Below are positions 1 through 51,184 of a stretch of DNA of 64,000 nucleotides, piece after piece. Origin of the DNA: Enchytraeus crypticus (taxonomy: Eukaryota > Annelida > Clitellata > Enchytraeida > Enchytraeidae); contig CAJHZI010000517.1 of the NCBI GenBank assembly GCA_905160935.1, positions 2,224,501 to 2,288,500 of the forward strand, given 5' to 3'. The position numbers and the translations under genes were made by a program. The notes beneath the pieces are model-generated. The model had not been told where the DNA came from and did not search any database. It saw only the letters and a list, made by a program, of their open reading frames with translations. Every line of letters begins with the position of its first letter. The first letter of the stretch is position 1.

Positions 1-2085
1 CACCTAGACTCTAATGACTATTATTCTTCTTCCTTTGATGCCTTGATGAACACTTGATGCCTTTGATCTCAAACAACATATATCTTCCCCTACTCACTCC
101 TCTGGTCATATTCTTGATCTTCTTATCACTCGAAACAGCATGTCATTTCTTGATCAAGGAATCTCTGATCCTTCACTATCAGATCACAGTGCAATTTTCT
201 GTAAATTGCCCGTGCCTGTTAATGTACACCCTTCCAGAACACTTAAAACTTATAGAAAACTCTCTTCTATTAACATTGATGCCTTCTCTGCTAATATTGT
301 GTCCTCTTCTTTGTATTTTAATCCGTCTTCAACTGTTGCCAAATATTCAGCTCAATTTGGCTCCCTACTTTCTTCCATGTTAGACAAACATGCCCCTCTC
401 AAGACCATTCATTTCCGCTCAAACCCTAGGAAATCATTCATTTCTGAACAAATCCTTAAACAAAAATCTGAACGTTCAAAACTCGAAACTGAGTTCAGGA
501 AGGATCTGTAAAATCCACCTGAACTAAGAAATCCAGACATTAAATCCAAGTACATCAAGCAAAGAAAATTAGTAAATAAAATGATTAGTTCTGCTAAAAG
601 CGTGTATTATCAAAATCTAATATTGCAGAATCAAAATTGTCCCAAGACAATCTCTCTCTCATTATCAATCTGCCTATAGAAAACTCCATTCTACTGAAAC
701 CGTTCTTCTTCGTATACATAATGATCTTAGCTTGGCCATGAGTAGTAAACAGGTTTCTGCCTTGGTTCTTCTAGATCTCTCTGTTGCTTTTGATACAATT
801 GACCATGGCATCCTAATAAATAGGCTTAAATCTTGTTTTGGCATATCTGATTCTGCTTTTTCCCTTCTCACATCATATCTCTCATGTCACACACAATCTG
901 TTGTTATTGGTCAAAATCGCTCTTCTGTACTACCCCTCCTACGCGGTGTTCCTCAAGGTTCAGTGTTAGGTCCATTGCTCTTCTCTTTATATATCACACC
1001 TCTTAGCTACCTGCTTGCTCAGTCCTCCATAAATTTTCAATTTTATGCAGACGACACATAACTATATATTTCCTTTTCTAATCATGATTTTGATCAAAAA
1101 CTTGCTCATCTCTCATCCATTCTTGACAAGGTTTATTCCTGGTTTTGTGCTAACCGTCTTGCTGTTAATCCCTCCAAAACTGAATACCTTTTAATTGGCA
1201 CCCCTTTGCAAAGAAGTAAAATTACCAATAACTCTGTTAATTTTCAGAATCTTGCTCTTTCACCTTCTCGATCTGCCAAAAACCTTGGAGTCATATTTGA
1301 TGAAAACCTTGACTTTAAATCCCAAATCTCTTCTGTTTGTCGCGCTTCCTTCTTTCAGATTCGTCAGATTAGGCAAATACGTCCATCCCTTACTAGAAAT
1401 TCAGGCACTATCCTTGCTAATTCTATAGTTCATTCAAAGCTCGACTACTGTAATTCATTATTACATGGGTTGCCTACTTCTTCTCCTAATTGTTTGCAGC
1501 ACGTCCAAAATTCTCTTGCACGTGTTGTTTGCAAGTCCTCTCGACTTCAATTTCGCTCTCTTTCTCTTCTACGCAGTCTTCACTGGCTCCCTGTTAATCA
1601 ACGCATAAAATATTAAATAGCTCTATTAACTTTCAAAACTCTGCGATTTGGCAAGCCTTCTTACTTATCTGAAATTCTTCTTCCCTATCGCCCTCACGTA
1701 CACTTCGCTCCACCGATGCCAATCTTCTCTCAGTTCCAAATATTCTCACGTCATTGGGCAGACGTTCATTTTCTTACGCAGCACCCACAATCTGGAACTC
1801 TTTACCTGTTAATCTTCGCTCTTGTTTTTCTCTTTCAACATTCTCTAGCAAGCTTAAAACTTACGTTTTCCCACCATAGACATAATCAATCTACCCTTAC
1901 CATGTTTTTGCTCACCGGACTGGCTTTCGTTTAGGAACTTACTTCTCCTCAACACATTTCTTTCGCAGATTGGTCGGGGTGAATTGATCTGTAGTGATAT
2001 GTGCTGTTGGGGACGTCCCTGACATCATCCCTGGATGAGGAAACGGACGTTAAACCTTTATTATTATTATTATTATTATTATATT
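1..2085 (+). mobile_element. LINE-A copy 1 (CR1/L2-like non-LTR retrotransposon, broken)
   Basis: 5' part lies outside the window. Translation shows the end of an APE endonuclease (ILDLLITRNS, then LSDHSAIFCKL near 150-215), then reverse transcriptase: SVAFDTIDHGIL near 780, GVPQGSVLGPLLF near 945 and the catalytic YADDT near 1045, then a C-terminal region. The 3' end is a (TTA)n tail at 2059-2085. The copy is dead. The Gln codon after YADDT is TAA (1059-1061), other frame breaks follow, and about 530 bp of RT present in the 4374 copy is missing at about 645. The CR1/L2 assignment rests on the RT motifs and on the RSFSYAAPTIWNSLP-type C-terminal segment readable in the 43566 fragment. Confidence 0.9.
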
Positions 2086-2857: not shown

Positions 2858-3149
2858 GAGTGACATACGACCCAGGGTGACATACGACCCAGGGTGACAT
2901 ACGACCCAGGGTGACATACGACCCAGGGTGACATACGACCCAGGGTGACATACGACCCAGGGTTATATACGACCCAGGGTGACATACGACCCAGAGTGAC
3001 ATATGACCCAGAGTGACATACGACCCAGGGTGACATACGACCCAGGGTGAAGTACGACCCAGGGTGAAGTACGATCCAGGGTTACATACGACCCAGGGTG
3101 ACATACGACCCAGGATGACATACGACTCAGGGTGACATACGACCTAGGG
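2858..3149. repeat. 17-bp minisatellite
   Basis: About 17 head-to-tail copies of GTGACATACGACCCAGG. Variants such as GTTATATACG and GTGAAGTACG occur inside the array. Open frames across it (e.g. - strand repeats of YVTLGRMSPWVVCHPGS) come from the 17-bp period and are not genes. Confidence 0.97.
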
Positions 3150-3520
3150 GTACTTACAACACATGGTGAAATACCAGCATATTATTTAGAAAATTACATT
3201 ATTGAAAGAATATTAATTTCTGGTTTAGAAATAACTTCCACTAGACCGCTATATCGTTTAAAAGCAGTTGCTCTATCCACTTGGCTATCCAAACAGTACA
3301 ATCAACTTCAACTGAATAAAATCCTCTGCTCACGTGATCAGCTTATTTCATGTGGATAATATAATTACATTTCTTGCAGACGTCCTCTAAATTCTCCAGA
3401 CAAACCTAGCCTGCGCTTTATTAAGAGTATTTTAGAATGAAACTTTAGAAAAACTTAATCAAGGAAACTTTAATAAGAAAAAAATGTAGCAAGAGAGAAG
3501 ATAAAAAGTATTAAAGCTAA

Positions 3521-3650
3521 AAAGCTAAGGTTAACGTCAGTTTCCTCACTCGAAAGCGATGTCAGTGACGGGCGAGCCCAGGATTTGAACCCCGCATCTT
3601 CTGATCCGCGGTCGATTGTCTTACCGACTTCGCCACTGGCCGAGCCAGTG
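3521..3650 (-). mobile_element. tRNA-derived SINE (SINE-A)
   Basis: Read on the - strand this has a pol III box A-like TGGCGAAGTCGG, a box B-like GGTTCAAATCC, and the conserved 3' body GTCACTGACATCG / TTTCGAGTGAGG / AAACTGACGTTAACC. It is nearly full length. The family recurs about 20 times in this window. Confidence 0.9.
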
Positions 3651-4014: not shown

Positions 4015-4150
4015 AAGGTAATGGCAAAGCCAATGTTAACGTCAGTTTCCTTAGTCGAAAGCGATGTCAGTGACGAGATAGCCAAGGATTTGAACCCCCA
4101 CACACTGATCCGCGGTCGAATATCTTACCGACATCACCATTGGCTCCAGC
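4015..4150 (-). mobile_element. SINE-A copy
   Basis: Same tRNA-like head and GTCACTGACATCGCTTTCG body as the other copies, with point changes (for example CTCGTCACTG for CCCGTCACTG). Flanking sequence on both sides resembles pieces of another repeat, so this may be a nested insertion. Confidence 0.85.
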
Positions 4151-4373: not shown

Positions 4374-6746
4374 TTATAGAAAACTTTCTTCTATTAACAT
4401 TGATGCCTTCTCTGCTGATATTGTGTCCTCTTCTTTGTATTTCAATCCATCTTCAACTTTTTCCGAATATTCAGCTCAATTTAGCTCCGTACTTTCTTCC
4501 ATATTAGACAAACATGCCCATCTTAAGACCATTCATTGCCGCTCAACCCCTAGGCAACCATTCATTTCTGAACAAATCCTTAAACAAAAATCTGAACGTT
4601 CAAAACTCGAAACTAAGTTCAGTAGCTGAAAAATCCACCTGAACTACGAAATCCAGATATTAAGTCCAAGTACCTCAAACACAGAAAATTATTAAATAAA
4701 ATGATTAGTTCTGCTAAAAGCTTGTATTATCAAAATCTAATCTCGCAGAATCAAAATTGTCCCAAGAAATTATGGGGAGCACTTGACTCTCTGCTTGATC
4801 GAACCATTCCCAAGTCACTCCCCTCTACCGCCTCACCATCTTCTCTTGCTACCTCTTTTCTCAACTTTTTCGATGACAAAATAGCCAAACTCTGTAGCTC
4901 TATACCCTCCAACTCCATTGACACCGACAACTCCATTTCTGTAAATATGCCTGAACCACCACTACTTTCTAGTTTTGAACCAGCTAAACCGGAAGAAATA
5001 CGCAATTTTATTCTTCGCTCTACCGACTCATCTTGCTGCCTTGATGTTATTCCTACACGCTTACTGAAATCCTGTATTGATGTTTTAGTTGCTCCTATTA
5101 CTTACTTAATCAACCTCTCACTCTCAGAAGGTATCTTCCCGACCTCCTTCAAACAAGCAGTTGTATCTCCTTTGCTAAAAAGCCTTCTCTACCAAAAGAT
5201 GATCTTTCCAGTTACCGTCCTATTTCCAATCTTAACTTCATCTCTAAACTTCTTGAAAAGGTAATTTATACCCGTTTATGCACTCATCTTGATTCTTTCC
5301 CTTCTCTCTCTCATTATCAATCTGCCTATAGAAACTCCATTCTACTGAAACCGCTCTTCTTCGTATACATAATGATCTTAGCTTGGCCATGAGTAGTAAA
5401 CAGGTTTCTGCCTTGGTTCTTCTAGATCTCTCTGCTGCCTTTGATACAATTGGACCATGGCATCCTAATAAATAGGCTTAAATCTTGTTTTGGCATATCT
5501 GATTCTGCTTTTTCCCTTCTCACATCATATCTCTCTGTCGCACACAATCTGTTGTTATTGGTCAAAATCGCTCTTCTGAACTACCCCTCCTACGCGGTGT
5601 TCCTCAAGGTTCAGTGTTAGGTCCATTGCTCTTCTCTTTATATATCACTCCTCTTAGCTACCTGCTTGCTCTGCTCCTGCAAAAATGTTCATTTCTGCAG
5701 ACGACACACAACTATCATTTATATGCACGACACACACAACCGTTTCTATCATGATTCTGATCAAAAACTTGCTCATCTCTCATCCATTAGGACAAGGTTT
5801 ATGCCTGGTTTTGTGCTAACCGTCTTGCTGTTAATCCTTCCAAAACTGAATACCTTTTAATTGGCACTTCTTTGCAAAGAAGTAAAATTACCTATAGCTC
5901 TGTTAATTTCAGAATCTTGCTCTTTCGCCTTCTCGATCCGCCAAAAACCTTGGAGTCATATTTGATGAAAACCTTGACTTTAAATCCCATATCTCTTCTG
6001 TTTGTCGCGCTTCTTTCTTTCAGATTCGTCAGATTAGGCAAATACGTCCATCCCTTACTAGAAATTCAGCCACTATCCTTGCTAATTCTATAGTTCATTC
6101 AAAGCTCGACTACTGTAATTCATTATTACATGGGTTGCCTACTTCTTCTCTCAATCGTTTGCAGCACGTCCAAAATTCTCTTGCACGTGTTGTTTGTAAG
6201 TCCTCTCGACTTCAATTTCGCTCTCTTTCTCTACTTCGCAGTCTTCATTGGCTCCCTGTTAATCAACGCATCAAATATAAAATAGCGATTTGGCAAGCCT
6301 TCTTACTTATCTGAAATTCTTTCAAAACTCTGCGATTTGGCAAGCCTTCTTACTTATCTGAAATTCTTCTTCCCTATCGCCCCTCACGTACACTTCGCTC
6401 CACCGATGCCAATCTTCTCTCAGTTCCAAATATTCTCACGTCATTGGGCAGACGTTCATTTTCTTACGCAGCACCCACAATCTGGAACTCTTTACCTGTT
6501 AATCTTCGCTCTTGTTTTTCTCTTTCAACATTCTCTAGCAAGCTTAAAACTTACGTTTTCCCACCATAGACATAATCAATCTACCCTTACCATGTTTTTG
6601 CTCACCGGACTGGCTTTCGTTTAGGAACTTACTTCTCCTCAACACATTTCTTTCGCAGATTGGTCGGGGTGAATTGATCTGTAGTGATATGTGCTGTTGG
6701 GGACGTCCCTGACATCATCCCTGGATGAGGAAACGGACGTTAAACC

Positions 6747-6784
<38 letters not shown>
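4374..6784 (+). mobile_element. LINE-A copy 2 (CR1/L2-like, broken)
   Basis: 5'-truncated copy starting at TTATAGAAAACT, equivalent to position 248 of copy 1. It keeps the RT N-terminal region missing from copy 1: 4701-5264 encodes LWGALDSLLDRTIPKSLPST and later CLDVIPTRLLKSCID. The RT motifs, PQGSVLG region, ADDTQL and C-terminal segment follow in shifting frames, so no complete ORF remains. About 6280-6370 holds a short direct duplication (GCGATTTGGCAAGCC appears twice). It ends with GACGTTAAACC and a (TTA)n tail at 6750-6784. Confidence 0.9.
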
Positions 6785-11026: not shown

Positions 11027-11106
11027 GTCCCTGACATAATCCTTGACTATGATGTCCCTGACATCATCCTTGTATTAGGATACGAACGTTAAACCTTTAT
11101 TGTTAG
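11027..11106 (+). mobile_element. LINE-A-like 3' tail with an internal partial duplication
   Basis: GTCCCTGACATAATCC is followed by a second GTCCCTGACATCATCC, then GAACGTTAAACCTTTATTG. This is the LINE-A 3' terminus without the upstream body, so a very short insertion or a relic. Confidence 0.75.
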
Positions 11107-14999: not shown

Positions 15000-15127
15000 A
15001 GCTAAGGTTAGCGTCAGGTCCCTCACTCGAAGGCGATTTCAGTGACGGGCTAGCCCAGGATTTGAACCCCGCACATACTGATCCGCGGTCGAGTATCTCA
15101 CCGACTTCGTACTGGATCTAGGCAGTG
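15000..15127 (-). mobile_element. SINE-A copy
   Basis: - strand tRNA-like head, box B GGTTCAAATCC, GTCACTGAAATCGCC and GAGGGACCTGACGC. Point changes mark it as an older copy. Confidence 0.85.
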
Positions 15128-16067: not shown

Positions 16068-16200
16068 AGCTGGTAAAGCTAAGGTTAACGTCAGTTTCCT
16101 CACTCGAAAGCGATGTCATTCACGGTCGAGCCCAGGATTTGATCCCCGCACATACTGATCCGCGGTCAAGTATCTTACTGACATCGCCACTGGCTCCAGT
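16068..16200 (-). mobile_element. SINE-A copy close to a splice acceptor
   Basis: Nearly full-length - strand SINE-A with 3' end GCTTTACCAGC, ending about 60 bp before the next GPCR exon. Confidence 0.9.
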
Positions 16201-18492: not shown

Positions 18493-18690
18493 AGGCTGGT
18501 AAAGCTAATGTTTATTTATATATTTAGTTAGATCACCAAAAAGGGTCATTCAGCCCTGTACATGTTAACGACAGTTTCCTTGCACTAAAGGGATGTCAGC
18601 GACGGGCGAGCCCAGGTTTTGATCTCCGCACATACTGATCCGCGGACGAATATCTTACCAACATCGCCACTGGCTGGACCAGTGGTATAT
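18493..18690 (-). mobile_element. SINE-A copy split by another repeat tail
   Basis: SINE-A 3' end (GGCTGGTAAAGCTAATG) is separated from the rest (GTTAACGACAGTTTCC onward) by about 55 bp at 18511-18566 containing TTAGATCACCAAAAAGGG and CATTCAGCCCTGTACA. The same insert sequence recurs at 55075-55115. Confidence 0.8.
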
Positions 18691-22119: not shown

Positions 22120-22257
22120 GTAAAGCTGGTAAGGCTAATGTTAACGTCAGTTTCCTCACTCGAAAGCGATGTCAGTGACGGGCGAGCCTAGGATTTGAAA
22201 CCCGCACACACTGATCTGCGGTCGAATATCTTACCGACTTCACCACTGGCTCCAGTC
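22120..22257 (-). mobile_element. SINE-A copy
   Basis: - strand, near full length; box B reads GGTTTCAAATCC and the 3' body is conserved. Confidence 0.9.
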
Positions 22258-27665: not shown

Positions 27666-27782
27666 CTGGACTGGTGTTAACGTCAGTTTCAACTATCTAA
27701 AGTGATATCAGTGACGGGTGAGCCCAGGATTTCTGGTCCGCAGTTGTTTACCTTAATCGATATTGCCACTGGCTCCAGCCAT
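27666..27782 (-). mobile_element. SINE-A copy, degenerate
   Basis: The box B region is eroded, but GTCACTGATATCAC, ACTGACGTTAACACC and CTGGAGCCAGTGGC are recognisable. Confidence 0.75.
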
Positions 27783-28654: not shown

Positions 28655-28768
28655 ACTTCGGCAAGACAGTCGACCGCGGATCAATATGCGCGGGGTTCAA
28701 ATCCTGGGCTCGCCCATTCACTGACATAGTTTTCGAGTGAGGAAACTGACTTTAACCTGAGCTTTTAA
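28655..28768 (+). mobile_element. SINE-A copy (+ strand)
   Basis: CGACCGCGGATCAATATG, box B GGTTCAAATCC, CACTGACATAGTTTTCG, GTGAGGAAACTGAC and TTTAACCTGAGCTTTTA. Confidence 0.85.
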
Positions 28769-29027
28769 TTAAGTAAATTTGTCTGTATCTATTGAACTAA
28801 TGAAGATCAATCTCGTCCCTGTTAAATCTCGTCCCTGACACCTACTTCAGGTGAAGACTTGAACTTTAATTGCTGTTAACTGATTTTTTATATAGTAATT
28901 TTTCTCGTTTAATTACGATCATAATAAATGCCATGTTCCCAGTTTTCTCTTTAGTTCTGTGCTCTGAGGTCTTATGGTTTAGTACTTAAAATTTAGTCTT
29001 AGATAACGCATGTGGCAGATACCTAAA

Positions 29028-29153
29028 AGCTAGTAAAGCTTATGTAAACGTCAGTTTTCTCACTCTAATGCAATGTCAATGACGGGTGAGCCCAGGATTT
29101 GAACCCCGCATATACTGATCCGCGGTCGAATATCGCCACTGGCTCCAGCCAAT
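29028..29153 (-). mobile_element. SINE-A copy
   Basis: - strand, with a 13-bp gap in the head relative to other copies (GGCGATATTCGACC joins directly). Confidence 0.88.
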
Positions 29154-30139: not shown

Positions 30140-30268
30140 AAAAACTAACATTAAAGTCACTTTCCTCACTCGCAATCGATGTTAGTGACGGGCGAGCCCA
30201 GGATTTGAACCCCGCACATAGTGATCCGCGGTCGAATATCTTACCGACATCGCCACTGGCTCCGGCCA
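30140..30268 (-). mobile_element. SINE-A copy
   Basis: - strand, near complete (GGTTCAAATCC, CGTCACTAACATCG, GAGGAAAGTGACTTTAA). Confidence 0.9.
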
Positions 30269-31347: not shown

Positions 31348-31448
31348 ATGCTAAAGCCAAGTTTAATGTCAGTTTCCTGCTCGAATAGCTTGTCAGTGAC
31401 GGGAAGACCACTGAATTTGAACCATGCACCTACTGATGCGGTATAGGC
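31348..31448 (-). mobile_element. SINE-A copy, degenerate
   Basis: GGTTCAAATTCAGTGG, CCGTCACTGACAAG and GGAAACTGACATTAAAC remain. Confidence 0.7.
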
Positions 31449-31672: not shown

Positions 31673-31806
31673 TAGCAAAGATAGTATTAACAGCAGTTTC
31701 CTCACTTGAAAGCGATGTCAGTGACGGCGAGCCCAGGATTTGAACCCTGCACATACTGATCCGCGGTCGAGTATCTTACCGACATAGCCATTGGCTCCAG
31801 CCAGTG
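31672..31806 (-). mobile_element. SINE-A copy abutting the RTE end
   Basis: - strand, near complete; GCCAATGGCTATGTCGG head and GTCACTGACATCGCTTTC body. Confidence 0.88.
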
Positions 31807-32434
31807 GTAATCTCGCAGGAACTACGCATACCCTATAACCCTAAATTTCGCAATACTACATGTACATGGAAACTTACGCATGCATTCAGGTGTTTAAAAT
31901 TAGCAAGCAAATCAGATTGATAAAGGGACACACAGTTTCTTCACCTAGGCACAAATTCTTTCACTATTAGAAAGTTACCGGTGTCACATGTGTTTGAGGG
32001 ACCGGACGTTAAATTATCACTGATTGAATAGCAATCAGAACCAATCAGCCCAATCAAACAAACTCACAATCAATCAATATGAACTAAGCAATAATTCTTC
32101 ACCTGAATGCTGCGTTTGAGAGGTCCCTAGTTTTGTAACACAATTACAACAATATTCAGATACAGCAATAGACAGGATGAGGTGTAAAGTCGAGAGCTCT
32201 CAATGTCGCCTGAAGTTACATCAGTGACGGGCCGGTCCTGGATATGAGAGTATGCCGTGTTTGATCAGAAATAGACTTAATTAACAGCTCTGACGTACTA
32301 GTTAATTACACAGTCGTGTTGAGTCATTGCAATAATTAAAAATATAACACGGCATAGCAAAGTACATTACAAAGTAATGCAATGTCCAAATTACAATACA
32401 TTATAGTTATATGCTACAGTACAGTACAATGCAA
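31807..32434. other. No gene; eroded repeat pieces
   Basis: GAGGGACCGGACGTTAAATT (31996-32015) is a bare retroposon 3' motif. A highly eroded SINE-A body (ACATCAGTGACGGGCCGGTC) lies at about 32220. Confidence 0.5.
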
Positions 32435-32435
32435 T

Positions 32436-32576
32436 AAAGCTGGTAAAGCTAAGGTTAACGTCAGTTTCCTCACTCGAAAGCGATGTCAGTGACGGGCGAG
32501 CCCAGGATTTGAACCCCGCAAATACCGACCCGCAGTCGAGTATCTTACCGACATCGCCACTGGGTTCCAGCCAGTG
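32436..32576 (-). mobile_element. SINE-A copy, best preserved
   Basis: All parts present on the - strand: tRNA-like head, box B GGTTCAAATCC, CTCGCCCGTCACTGACATCG, CTTTCGAGTGAGGAAACTG, ACGTTAACCTTAGC, TTTACCAGC. Confidence 0.93.
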
Positions 32577-37861: not shown

Positions 37862-37984
37862 TGGTCATGTCGGTAAGATATCTGACCGCGGATCGTTATG
37901 TACTGAGTTCAAATCCTGAGCACGTCCGTCACTGATATTGCTTTCGGGAGATGAACTGACGTTAAAGTTGGCTTTACGGCTTTT
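37862..37984 (+). mobile_element. SINE-A copy (+ strand)
   Basis: CATGTCGGTAAGATATCTG, ACCGCGGATCG, box B AGTTCAAATCC, CGTCACTGATATTGC and GAACTGACGTTAAAG. Confidence 0.85.
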
Positions 37985-38609: not shown

Positions 38610-39278
38610 TCTTTTATGATACGTTCCTTTTGTGATACTAACTTCCAATAATAAAGGTGAAGTTAGTATCACAATAAATGGTACGAAACTGGAACAGGTA
38701 AGGAGTTTCAAATATTTGGGTCATACTATAACCGATGATGGGAAATGTGAGACAGAAATATGCAGTAGGATTGCACAAGCAAAAGCGGCCTTTGGTAGTA
38801 GAAAAGAACTATTAACACATAGTCTAAAGAAAGACACAAAGATAAAGATAGTCAAAACTTTGGTTTGGACCACGCTATTGTATGGATGAGCACCATGGAC
38901 CTTAAGAAAGGAAGATATTAGGAAACTGGAGGCATTGGAAATGTGGATTTGGAGAAGAATGGAGAGGATTAGCTGGACTCAAAAGGTTACAAATGAGAAG
39001 TCCTGGAGAGAGTTGGCACAGATAGACAGTTGATAAATGTATCAAGAGATAGGAAGAAGAGATGGATAGGACACATTCTAAGGGGGAAGGTCTATTAAAA
39101 GAGGTCATAGAAGGTAGAATGGAAGGAAAAAGAGGCAGGGGCAGGCCGTGATTAGGTATGTTAGATGATTTAGTGACCCACTCATATGTGGAAATGAAGA
39201 GGAAGGCGGAAGACAGAGAAAAGTGGAGGCGTTATGTACCATGGACCTGCCAGTAGGCAGTGCACTAAGAGAGATGAT
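38610..39278 (+). mobile_element. RTE-like LINE, 3' part of ORF2
   Basis: Translation gives SFKYLGHTITDDGKCETEI, QAKAAFGSRKELLT, KTLVWTTLLYG, a stop at 38887-38889, then APWTLRKEDIRKLEALEMW, WRRMERISWT and GKRGRGRP. This is the C-terminal half of an RTE-clade endonuclease-reverse transcriptase. It ends CTGCCAGTAGGCAGTGCAC with a short (GA)n. Confidence 0.88.
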
Positions 39279-42277: not shown

Positions 42278-42425
42278 ATAATTCCAATAAAGGTTTAACG
42301 TCCATTTCCTCATCCAGGGATGATGTCAGGGATTTCCCCACAGCACACATCACACAGATCAATTCACCTGGACCAATCCGCAAAAGAAATGTGCTGAGGA
42401 GAAGTATGGTCCTAAACGAAAGCCA
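42278..42425 (-). mobile_element. LINE-A 3' end fragment
   Basis: Starts AATAAAGGTTTAACGTCC, then TTCCTCATCCAGGGATGATG; matches the last 145 bp of LINE-A on the - strand. Confidence 0.9.
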
Positions 42426-43565: not shown

Positions 43566-43918
43566 ATAATAATAGTAAAGGTTTAACGTCCGTTCCCTCA
43601 TCCAGGGATGATGTCAGGGACGTCCCCAACAGCACACATCACTACAGATCAATTCACCCAGACCAATCTGCAAAAGAAATGTGCTGAGGAGAAGTAAGGT
43701 CCTAAACGAAAGCCAGTCCGATGATCAAAAATGGTCAGGGTAGATTGATTATGTCTACCGTGAGAAAAGGTAAGTCTTAAGCTTGCTAGAGAATGTTGAA
43801 AGAGAAAAACAAGAAGAACAAGAACAAGAACAAGATTAGCAGGTAAAGAGTTCCAGATTGTGGGTGCTGCGTAAGAAAAAGAACGTCTGCCCAATGACGT
43901 GAGAATATTTGGAACAGA
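43566..43918 (-). mobile_element. LINE-A 3' fragment
   Basis: On the - strand it encodes RRSFSYAAPTIWNSLPANL, the CR1/L2-type C-terminal segment, in one frame and ends with GACGTTAAACC and a short (TTA)n. It overlaps the extended C-terminal frame of the SLC46-like gene 1. Confidence 0.9.
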
Positions 43919-44201: not shown

Positions 44202-44545
44202 CTAATCAATCAATCAATCAGTCAATCAATCAATCAATCAATTACTTCTACATCAGCCCTATTGTTACAGCATACATCAGGCGATACTAGCTGTCACTCC
44301 TAACACCGCTCCTAATCAATCAATCAATCAATCAATCCATTGATCAATCACTTCACGTCCTGGAAACAGACGTCCCTGACTTTGCCTTATGGCGAGGAAC
44401 CGGACGCTAAATTCTTATTTATTGACTTCTACACCAGCCTTAGTGTTGCAGCATCTATCTATCAATCAATCAGACAATAAGCAAAACCATCATTCAGTCA
44501 GTGTATTAATCAGTCAATCAATCAGTCGATATATAAATCAATGAA
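44202..44545. repeat. (AATC)n arrays with a duplicated exon start and retroposon pieces
   Basis: 44281-44313 repeats the first 30 or so coding bases of the SLC46-like exon with its TTAG acceptor. 44362-44420 holds a (TTGA)n-family end (CGTCCCTGACTTTGCC / GGCGAGGAACCGGACGC). The rest is AATC arrays. Confidence 0.85.
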
Positions 44546-50219: not shown

Positions 50220-50352
50220 CACATAAAACTACCCGTCTGTTATCAATTCGCCGTTGTTGATTTAACGCAAGGCTGCTGTTTCAGTGGCAAATTTTCTTAT
50301 CTATATTTAATCTCTGCATGTAATGATCAGGCTACTGTACATTCAGTACAAG

Positions 50353-50424
50353 GGCTCTATGGCTTAGTTGGCAAAGCGTCTGCCTAGTAAGCAGAAGATC
50401 ATGGGTTCGATTCCCATTGGAGCC
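50353..50424 (+). tRNA. tRNA-Thr (AGT), copy 1
   Basis: 72 nt without CCA. Acceptor GGCTCTA pairs with TGGAGCC (one G-T). The D arm is GCTT..AAGC, anticodon arm TCTGC-CTAGTAA-GCAGA with anticodon AGT, and T arm ATGGG-TTCGATT-CCCAT. Internal promoters are GGCTTAGTTGG and GGTTCGATTCC. A short T-rich end follows. It decodes threonine codons in cytosolic translation (A34 expected to become inosine). Confidence 0.96.
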
Positions 50425-50506
50425 TTCTTATTTTGCATTACCAGATTATTGAAAAACTAAAGCTTTAAGGTAATCTAGAACACAGAGCTATATTGAAAAT
50501 ATAACA

Positions 50507-50581
50507 GGCTCTACGGCTTAGTTAGCAAAGCGTATGTATGCTTAACAAATAGAAGACCAAGGGTTCGAGTCTCACTGGACC
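50507..50581 (+). pseudogene. Decayed tRNA-Thr copy
   Basis: Begins GGCTCTACGGCTTAGTTAGC and keeps GGGTTCGAGTCTC. The anticodon arm is replaced by GTATGTATGCTTAACAAATA with extra bases, and the acceptor 3' strand has lost a base (TGGACC). The cloverleaf fails, so not a working tRNA. Confidence 0.88.
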
Positions 50582-50658
50582 ATTTTTAGTTTTACCCGGT
50601 ATTTCTGAGTTATAGATAGAAACAACTTAAACATAACCGTGCCTAACCTGATATAACG

Positions 50659-50730
50659 GGCTCTATGGCTTAGTTGGCAAAGCGTCTGCCTAGTAAGCAG
50701 AAGATCATGGGTTCGATTCCCATTGGAGCC
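50659..50730 (+). tRNA. tRNA-Thr (AGT), copy 2
   Basis: Identical over all 72 nt to the copy at 50353; flanks differ beyond about 10 bp. Followed by TTACTTTTGCATTTTTTT, a pol III-type T-run. Confidence 0.96.
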
Positions 50731-50818
50731 TTACTTTTGCATTTTTTTAAAATCCGATATTTCTTTTGAGTTATAAAACGAAAGAAGTAATTCATAGCCG
50801 CCCTACGCTGGCGTGATT

Positions 50819-50890
50819 GGCTCTATGGCTTAGTTGGCAAAGCGTCTGCCTAGTAAGCAGAAGATCATGGGTTCGATTCCCATTGGAGCC
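50819..50890 (+). tRNA. tRNA-Thr (AGT), copy 3
   Basis: Identical over all 72 nt to copies 1 and 2, 88 bp after copy 2. A TTTT run follows at about 50895. Confidence 0.96.
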
Positions 50891-51184
50891 TTGCTTTTAT
50901 TGACGCTCTAATTCTTTTACTATGCAAGGGATGAGCCCAAAATGTCATCCATTAAAATATTTTCGTAAGTTCTCATAAATAAAATGGAGGAAGTTAAAGG
51001 AAAACCATTTGAGTAACCATATATCCAAACACCTTTAAGCTAAAGGGTTTACTTTTGCATTAGGAAAAACTTAATGATTTATTAGATTTTATGTTAATCA
51101 ATAGATTACAGAGCTGAATATGAGTGAGAATTTGTGCTTTAGATCTGCCATAGGGTAGAACAATAGACTCCTATTATTTCACTC
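50891..51184. other. No gene recognised
   Basis: AT-rich spacer after the tRNA cluster. Confidence 0.4.

Follow-up and report, generated by a model that had tools for sequence, protein, structure and literature searches.

What does it mean when retroposons as different as a LINE, a tRNA-derived SINE and a family with a (TTGA)n tail all seem to end in the same short hairpin, as a first-pass annotation had proposed for the stretch of Enchytraeus crypticus DNA analyzed here (64,000 nt, referred to below as the window): is it a recognition hairpin serving all of these families, or an old conserved SINE core? The sequences behind this proposal are indeed present (at 2019, 6709, 44376 and, on the reverse strand, 32489), with flanks and spacing as claimed, and stem positions 4 and 5 do differ on both sides between the LINE (LINE-A; TCATC/GATGA) and the SINE (SINE-A; TCGCT/AGTGA), position 3 of the same inner stem changing from A-U in LINE-A to G-U in SINE-A. 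The observation was therefore right, albeit incomplete: an outer stem, a variant of the LINE (LINE-A2) and the LINE nature of the (TTGA)n family (LINE-C) had been missed.

The conserved unit comprises 46 nt, consisting of the outer stem (ACGTCC/GGACGT in LINE-A, CGTCC/GGACG in LINE-C and CGTCA/TGACG in SINE-A), an internal loop between both stems (CTGACA/GGAAAC, or CTGAC(A/T)/GGAACC in LINE-C) that is nearly identical across all families in the alignment, the inner stem, and a four-base terminal loop that varies by family (CCTG, CTTGT, TTCG, TTAT). A two-helix fold of this unit is likely, being the minimum-energy RNA prediction for LINE-A, LINE-A2, LINE-C and SINE-A (-16.3, -13.1, -16.1 and -10.0 kcal/mol, respectively), with only part of it predicted for a further, tentative family, SINE-B (-5.3 kcal/mol). 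Measured against shuffled sequences, the predicted energy is clearly lower only for LINE-C (z -2.7, with 2/200 shuffles as low as the native sequence); the z values for LINE-A, LINE-A2 and SINE-A are -1.4, -0.9 and -0.2, with 19, 35 and 74 shuffles as low (86 for SINE-B).

The covariation originally read from three sequences stands in part. In an alignment of 21 copies (20 distinct rows), 88.1% of the cells are paired, as opposed to 79.5% in 500 shuffles, and 28 cells are changed on both sides, as opposed to 11.1, these cell-based measures exceeding all 500 shuffles; counted by pair, there are 4 pairs with a double change (3.1 in shuffles; reached by 111/500) and 8 further pair types (8.7 in shuffles; reached by 492/500). 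A tree-aware test (custom script, substitution-permuting null, FastTree tree, 120 simulations), the input for which was 90 matches of exactly 46 nt (82 distinct; length-changed and some weak matches excluded), singled out the outer pair 7/34 alone (p 0.0004, with E values of 0.004 for the 11 pairs and 0.35 when all 903 column pairs are counted). The inner pairs 17/24 and 18/23 (p 0.017 and 0.027) lost their significance after correction, and some non-paired columns, 2/34 and 25/46 among them, came close to the best pair in score, a pattern that family-linked differences would produce. Pairing is thus kept between the families, with covariation supported for one outer pair and hinted for two inner ones, and the inner pairs initially cited are suggestive only.

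As for its carriers, the element is the families' own 3' end in LINE-A, LINE-A2 and LINE-C, and SINE-A holds a matching copy, i.e., a 3' end sequence shared between SINE and LINE is present, as in stringent-type LINE/SINE pairs. This structured 3' element, common to several retroposon families, lies directly before a simple-repeat tail, which differs by family, being (TTA)n in LINE-A, (TTGA)n in LINE-C and short, variable and AGCTTTACC-like in SINE-A. LINE-A2, whose loop is CTTGT and whose inner pair 5 is not formed, is a diverged relative, 72% identical to LINE-A some 360 nt upstream in the copy at L028:9703, its 3' element being the same except for the loop. The (TTGA)n family has LINE-like upstream sequence (L039 and others) and is therefore a LINE: L039 carries about 1.5 kb of upstream sequence, parts of which recur in three to six further copies, and beyond the element LINE-C is unrelated to LINE-A (the family survey scored 40 of 964 candidate places). 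The head of SINE-A is tRNA-like as judged by eye, and SINE-B, an older tRNA-SINE for which about four old copies support no more than a tentative family (with possible relatives at L020:2197-2241 and L032:2838-2881), probably carries a matching copy of the element as well. The extra sequence that follows the hairpin in SINE-A, (C/A)TTAGCTTTACCAGCTTTA, differs from copy to copy and consists in part of repeats (L013:4569, L028:5459), and therefore looks more like a tail than a core. The idea of an old conserved SINE core is weakened in turn, because the motif lies at the extreme 3' end of two LINE families.

The motif is most likely the 3' recognition element of an L2-like LINE group, with target-primed reverse transcription expected to start at the simple-repeat tail just downstream and a LINE protein as the putative binder; the broken reverse transcriptase fragments presumably belong with the L2 clade, which they resemble by eye. 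If so, recognition in this group should depend on the internal loop together with both stems rather than on the terminal loop. Rfam covariance models, run over the whole window at the gathering threshold, returned four tRNAs only and no LINE 3' element, nor did they return a LINE element at 1950-2100 with E up to 10, and searching the literature for the sequence words of the motif gave no match. A LINE with a SINE-A-type hairpin was also sought among the 417 SINE-A copies without a tRNA-type flank: none was seen in the 100 listed, many of which have one-base flank changes, the others being without visible common upstream sequence.

Table 1. Copies of the 3' element and associated retroposon features in the window
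Feature	Position	Strand	Basis
LINE-A 3' element, copy 1	2012..2057	+	covariance model, 66.6 bits
LINE-A copy 1, parts of the element	outer stem 2013-2018/2045-2050; internal loop 2019-2024/2039-2044; inner stem 2025-2029/2034-2038; loop 2030-2033	+	
LINE-A copy 1, (TTA)n tail	2057..2083	+	sequence
LINE-A copy 1, reverse transcriptase fragment	621..1061	+	Pfam RVT_1, E 3.8e-19
LINE-A 3' element, copy 2, then (TTA)n	6702..6747	+	covariance model
LINE-A 3' element, about 300 nt of LINE upstream	43579..43624	-	covariance model
LINE-A 3' element, about 104 nt of LINE upstream	42291..42336	-	covariance model
LINE-A 3' element, internal deletion, about 57 nt of LINE upstream	55393..55433	+	covariance model
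LINE-A2 3' element after a second partial copy of the element's 5' half (tandem re-copying)	11051..11096	+	
LINE-C 3' element, without LINE-C body directly upstream	44369..44414	+	covariance model
SINE-A: tRNA-like head (by eye), element (32451-32496), tail	32430..32573	-	
SINE-A element	3527..3572	-	covariance model
SINE-A element, decayed	4032..4077	-	covariance model
SINE-A element	22137..22182	-	covariance model
SINE-A element, 5'-shortened copy	53990..54035	-	covariance model
SINE-A element	53798..53843	-	covariance model
SINE-A element	16081..16126	-	covariance model
SINE-A element	15004..15049	-	covariance model
SINE-A element	29041..29086	-	covariance model
SINE-A element	31683..31728	-	covariance model
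SINE-A element	28714..28759	+	covariance model
SINE-A element, decayed	18561..18606	-	covariance model
SINE-A element, decayed	37925..37969	+	covariance model
SINE-A element, decayed	27673..27718	-	covariance model
SINE-A element	30147..30192	-	covariance model
SINE-B (tentative, older tRNA-SINE) element, inner stem GCT/AGC	31359..31403	-	covariance model

Several further features of these sequences may be recorded here. Some SINE-A tails (L013:4569, L028:5459, L007:1806) contain AGCTTT(ACC) units several times over, as though slippage had lengthened them; a SINE-A variant, CATCGGTTTCGCGTGAGG, whose inner pairs are not kept, occurs at four listed places, possibly one duplicated region; a hairpin-only LINE-A copy sits inside the tail of a SINE-A copy (L007:1442-1540); and CTCGTCCCTG...CTCGTCCCTGACACCTACTTCAGGTGAAG, motif-like and with a tandem start, lies downstream of a SINE-A copy of the window (28759-28860, + strand). 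The genes of the window include a rhodopsin-type receptor and LicD and MFS proteins, and a sequence resembling the LINE 3' motif (TCCCTGA...GAAA...GCGTTAAA) directly follows the stops of four of the five LicD-type paralogues (20830, 34610, 36953 and 41546, + strand), two of these sequences reaching covariance model E values of 0.02 and 0.04; it is perhaps an old LINE end serving as a 3' UTR. The window also holds a tandem array of GTGACATACGACCCAGG units (2860-3160), three tRNA-Thr genes in a row (50352-50891) and a tRNA-Pro gene (61437).

Beyond the three sequences originally named, about 20 further copies of the element are found in the window, and a covariance model run on a 264 kb sample (made up of the window and twenty 10-kb regions taken from fixed positions on four contigs) recovered 61 copies at E<0.01, including 17 that had served in its construction. 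Weak matches outside the recognised families (L018:128, L019:7294, L019:9935, L026:4155, L042:99) are perhaps old relatives, and patterns excluding both main stems retrieved mostly altered LINE-A and SINE-A copies, with no new family clearly among them. The genome comprises 524 Mb in 802 contigs; in it, the LINE-A 20-mer has 3745 exact occurrences, the SINE-A 20-mer at least 16,973 and the LINE-C 20-mer at least 2752 (the latter two are lower bounds, one base 15 nt upstream having been restricted in both patterns), as opposed to 0 for reversed control patterns in the same searches, which places the motif far above the chance background.

What sets these LINEs apart is where their copies begin. 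Among the 100 listed copies of each family (the first in contig order, with a few duplicated ones, their upstream sequences listed without selecting on them), 28 LINE-A (of 3013) and 31 LINE-C (of 2752) copies begin at -7/-6, with GACGTCC or ACGTCC, i.e., at the 5' edge of the outer stem, as opposed to a single SINE-A copy (of 16,973), one other SINE-A copy beginning at -5, which is that family's own stem foot. Starts within -7 to -5 thus number 28 for LINE-A and 34 for LINE-C versus 2 for SINE-A (Fisher p 1e-7 and 9e-10, respectively), and, inside the 15 nt viewed, 28/44 LINE-A and 31/64 LINE-C breakpoints fall on just 2 of the 15 positions. Elsewhere breakpoints are spread out, those of the local copies lying between 5 and about 370 nt upstream. 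About three in ten listed copies of LINE-A and LINE-C, in other words, hold little beyond the element itself. The 264 kb sample contains 16 LINE-type copies, four of which (L028:4462, L026:4931, L013:5852 and window 11051) likewise clearly start at the foot, the bases immediately preceding GACGTCC or GATGTCC being clearly non-LINE; a further two (44369, L025:8231) possibly do so. A 3' hairpin common to a LINE and a SINE is of a known kind; it is these foot-starting copies that are new here. Among the titles and abstract openings listed in literature searches, none described LINE copies cut short at the foot of their 3' hairpin, although such a description may already be in print.

The junctions of the foot copies are informative in several respects. 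A T precedes the foot (at -8) in 25/28 LINE-A and 26/31 LINE-C foot copies, and in the five LINE-A foot copies with a target-site duplication (TSD) of at least 8 nt and non-element filler (L002, L004, L057, L058, L060) this T closes the filler and does not belong to the target DNA, whereas in L047 and L053 it is part of a duplication reaching the foot. Seven foot or near-foot copies from outside the lists have the T in 2/7 cases (L028:4462, window 11051); LINE-A2 accounts for most of the five that lack it, and five of the seven are LINE-A2 or similar, before the feet of which, in the few copies available, T is not usual. TSDs of at least 7 nt occur in 10/23 LINE-A foot copies versus 6.9% in mismatched pairings, and the duplication is often separated from the foot by 5-31 nt of filler. 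In this count the tail was mis-set for L052 and L062; among the ten matches, that of L066 falls within an AT microsatellite and that of L048 is 31 nt away from the element. For one insertion, in L056, a related repeat lacking it lies in the window near 39190 (- strand), the target being CTAATC(T/A)CGGCC and ten extra bases ending in T preceding the foot. The element's 5' half has also been re-copied in tandem, each pass ending at the foot, in L064 (three passes) and, for LINE-C, in L067. Finally, the LINE-A cDNA end GACGTC can, as predicted from sequence, pair with its own GATGTC, and the sequence before LINE-A feet tends to CCAGGGAT, which is what such a snap-back would add: LINE-A versus LINE-C feet have A at -9 in 19/28 vs. 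8/31, and G at -10, -11 and -12 in 9/28 vs. 3/31, 12/28 vs. 2/31 and 11/28 vs. 3/31, respectively, with long snap-back products in the LINE-A copies L059 and L063. LINE-C lacks snap-back sequence before its feet, as its own sequence predicts. Snap-back was accordingly rejected as a general cause of the T at -8, which LINE-C has (26/31) although the rest of the snap-back sequence is absent there, and it is an unlikely cause of the stop, the hot spot being present in LINE-C even though that family's short cDNA hairpin is not stable.

An insertion signature common to LINE and SINE did not emerge from the TSD comparison of LINE-A foot, SINE-A and LINE-C foot copies: duplications of at least 7 nt show no excess over control in SINE-A (3/31 vs. 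9.2%) or in LINE-C foot copies (3/20 vs. 10%), and the target-site data give no support to the LINE-A enzyme moving SINE-A. The proposal that one hairpin serves several families is borne out as far as the common element is concerned; the TSD signature differs in SINE-A, and the 5' hot spot of both LINEs is absent there.

How, then, would such a hot spot arise? The explanation favoured here, the chances of which we consider evenly balanced, is that it is caused by RNA ends at the foot of the LINE element: the LINE RNA being copied would often end at the foot of the outer stem, having been shortened, by trimming from the 5' direction or by cleavage, as far as the boundary of an element held by the LINE protein, and the enzyme would run off the template end, often adding one base (T on the insertion strand), or would sometimes jump back and re-copy the element or prime on its own folded cDNA end, all before the 5' junction is sealed. 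It is put no higher because the T is rarer off-list, because TSDs of LINE-C foot and SINE-A copies are not above control, and because the RNA ends are ones that we infer; moreover, re-copying begins inside the element and not at the RNA 3' end, which speaks against a template end, and the SINE-A contrast supports one only if SINE-A uses a (putative) related enzyme. A stop of the reverse transcriptase at the foot, its grip lost once the anchor is copied, much like promoter escape, or its cDNA folding on itself and leaving the template, would leave similar DNA, and we hold it to be possible yet somewhat doubtful: a hot spot exactly at the element's edge in two LINE families, the ability of the LINE-A cDNA to form a long hairpin (-7.3 kcal/mol, z -2.1) or, at its 3' end, a short one, and the existence of snap-back products would all suit it, whereas LINE-C has the hot spot despite an unstable short cDNA end hairpin, SINE-A shows none, though one would be expected if the same enzyme were used, and added bases and re-copying are, in the part of PMC10830420 consulted, described for template ends.

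Descent alone, by which an old 3' end was merely inherited, the foot copies stem from small element transcripts and no enzyme is common to the present families, seems improbable: the lack of a TSD signal in SINE-A next to the 10/23 of LINE-A, the differing tails and the non-significant inner-stem covariation are in keeping with it, but pairing is kept despite sequence change (in 88% of cells, and at pair 7/34) and the internal loop hardly differs from family to family. Least credible is an artefact of listing order, of duplicated regions or of a separate repeat starting with GACGTCC; although each list indeed stops after 100 copies in contig order and some of these duplicate one another (two in L066, the C20 pairs, three ATGCAAGAGACGCCC), the flanks differ among the foot copies examined (20 LINE-A, 20 LINE-C), LINE-A has TSDs, and the 264 kb sample yielded its foot starts (four clear and two uncertain among 16 LINE-type copies) as well. 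Returning to RNA ends at the foot, a bolder version, which we offer tentatively and would not expect to hold, is that LINE ribonucleoproteins have left thousands of footprints in the genome, the RNA having been eaten from its 5' end as far as the protein-held 3' element and the tag of about 45 nt inserted nonetheless. Were it true, roughly 30% of the insertions in two LINE families would represent protected RNA fragments rather than enzyme failures, and the 5' shortening of LINEs would be partly set by RNA decay. The cause of 5' shortening in most LINE copies is an old question, and a sharp, sequence-defined shortening point with countable junctions could separate RNA ends from enzyme stops.

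Among known systems, the eel LINE UnaL2 with its partner SINE UnaSINE1 is an example from the L2 clade. L2-clade proteins recognise the LINE 3' stem-loop, as in zebrafish ZfL2-1 and ZfL2-2, and, according to the portion of PMC4176376 consulted, this stem-loop is needed for retrotransposition; as here, it has upper and lower stems, stands before a repeat tail and is part of a tail common to LINE and SINE, such tail sharing being established (PMC4176376 and PMC3747384, as far as seen). In those elements, however, the terminal loop decides specificity, whereas here it varies and the internal loop is constant, and the parts seen of PMC4176376 describe no 5' hot spot at the foot. The plant L1-clade LINE/SINE pair of PMC3747384 (again from the part available) resembles the present case in having a hairpin at the common 3' end with compensatory mutations, a variable, compensated stem and constant flanking bases, and differs in LINE clade, in having a single hairpin and, in that part, in coming without insertion-end data. 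LINE-1 5' junctions have been classed by TSD, extra bases and microhomology (PMC2912911, excerpt), and human LINE-1 ORF2p carries out non-templated addition past the 5' end of its template, forms concatemers by template jumping and uses RNA hairpins as primers for extension (PMC10830420, likewise in part), three activities that match the three junction kinds at the foot. They were seen in vitro for L1, and their counterparts here would be read from genomic junctions in another LINE group. The viral xrRNA fold halts a 5'-3' exonuclease on its 5' side, leaving a defined fragment, and the fragment defined by the foot might be its analogue, with a putative protein-bound LINE element as the block.
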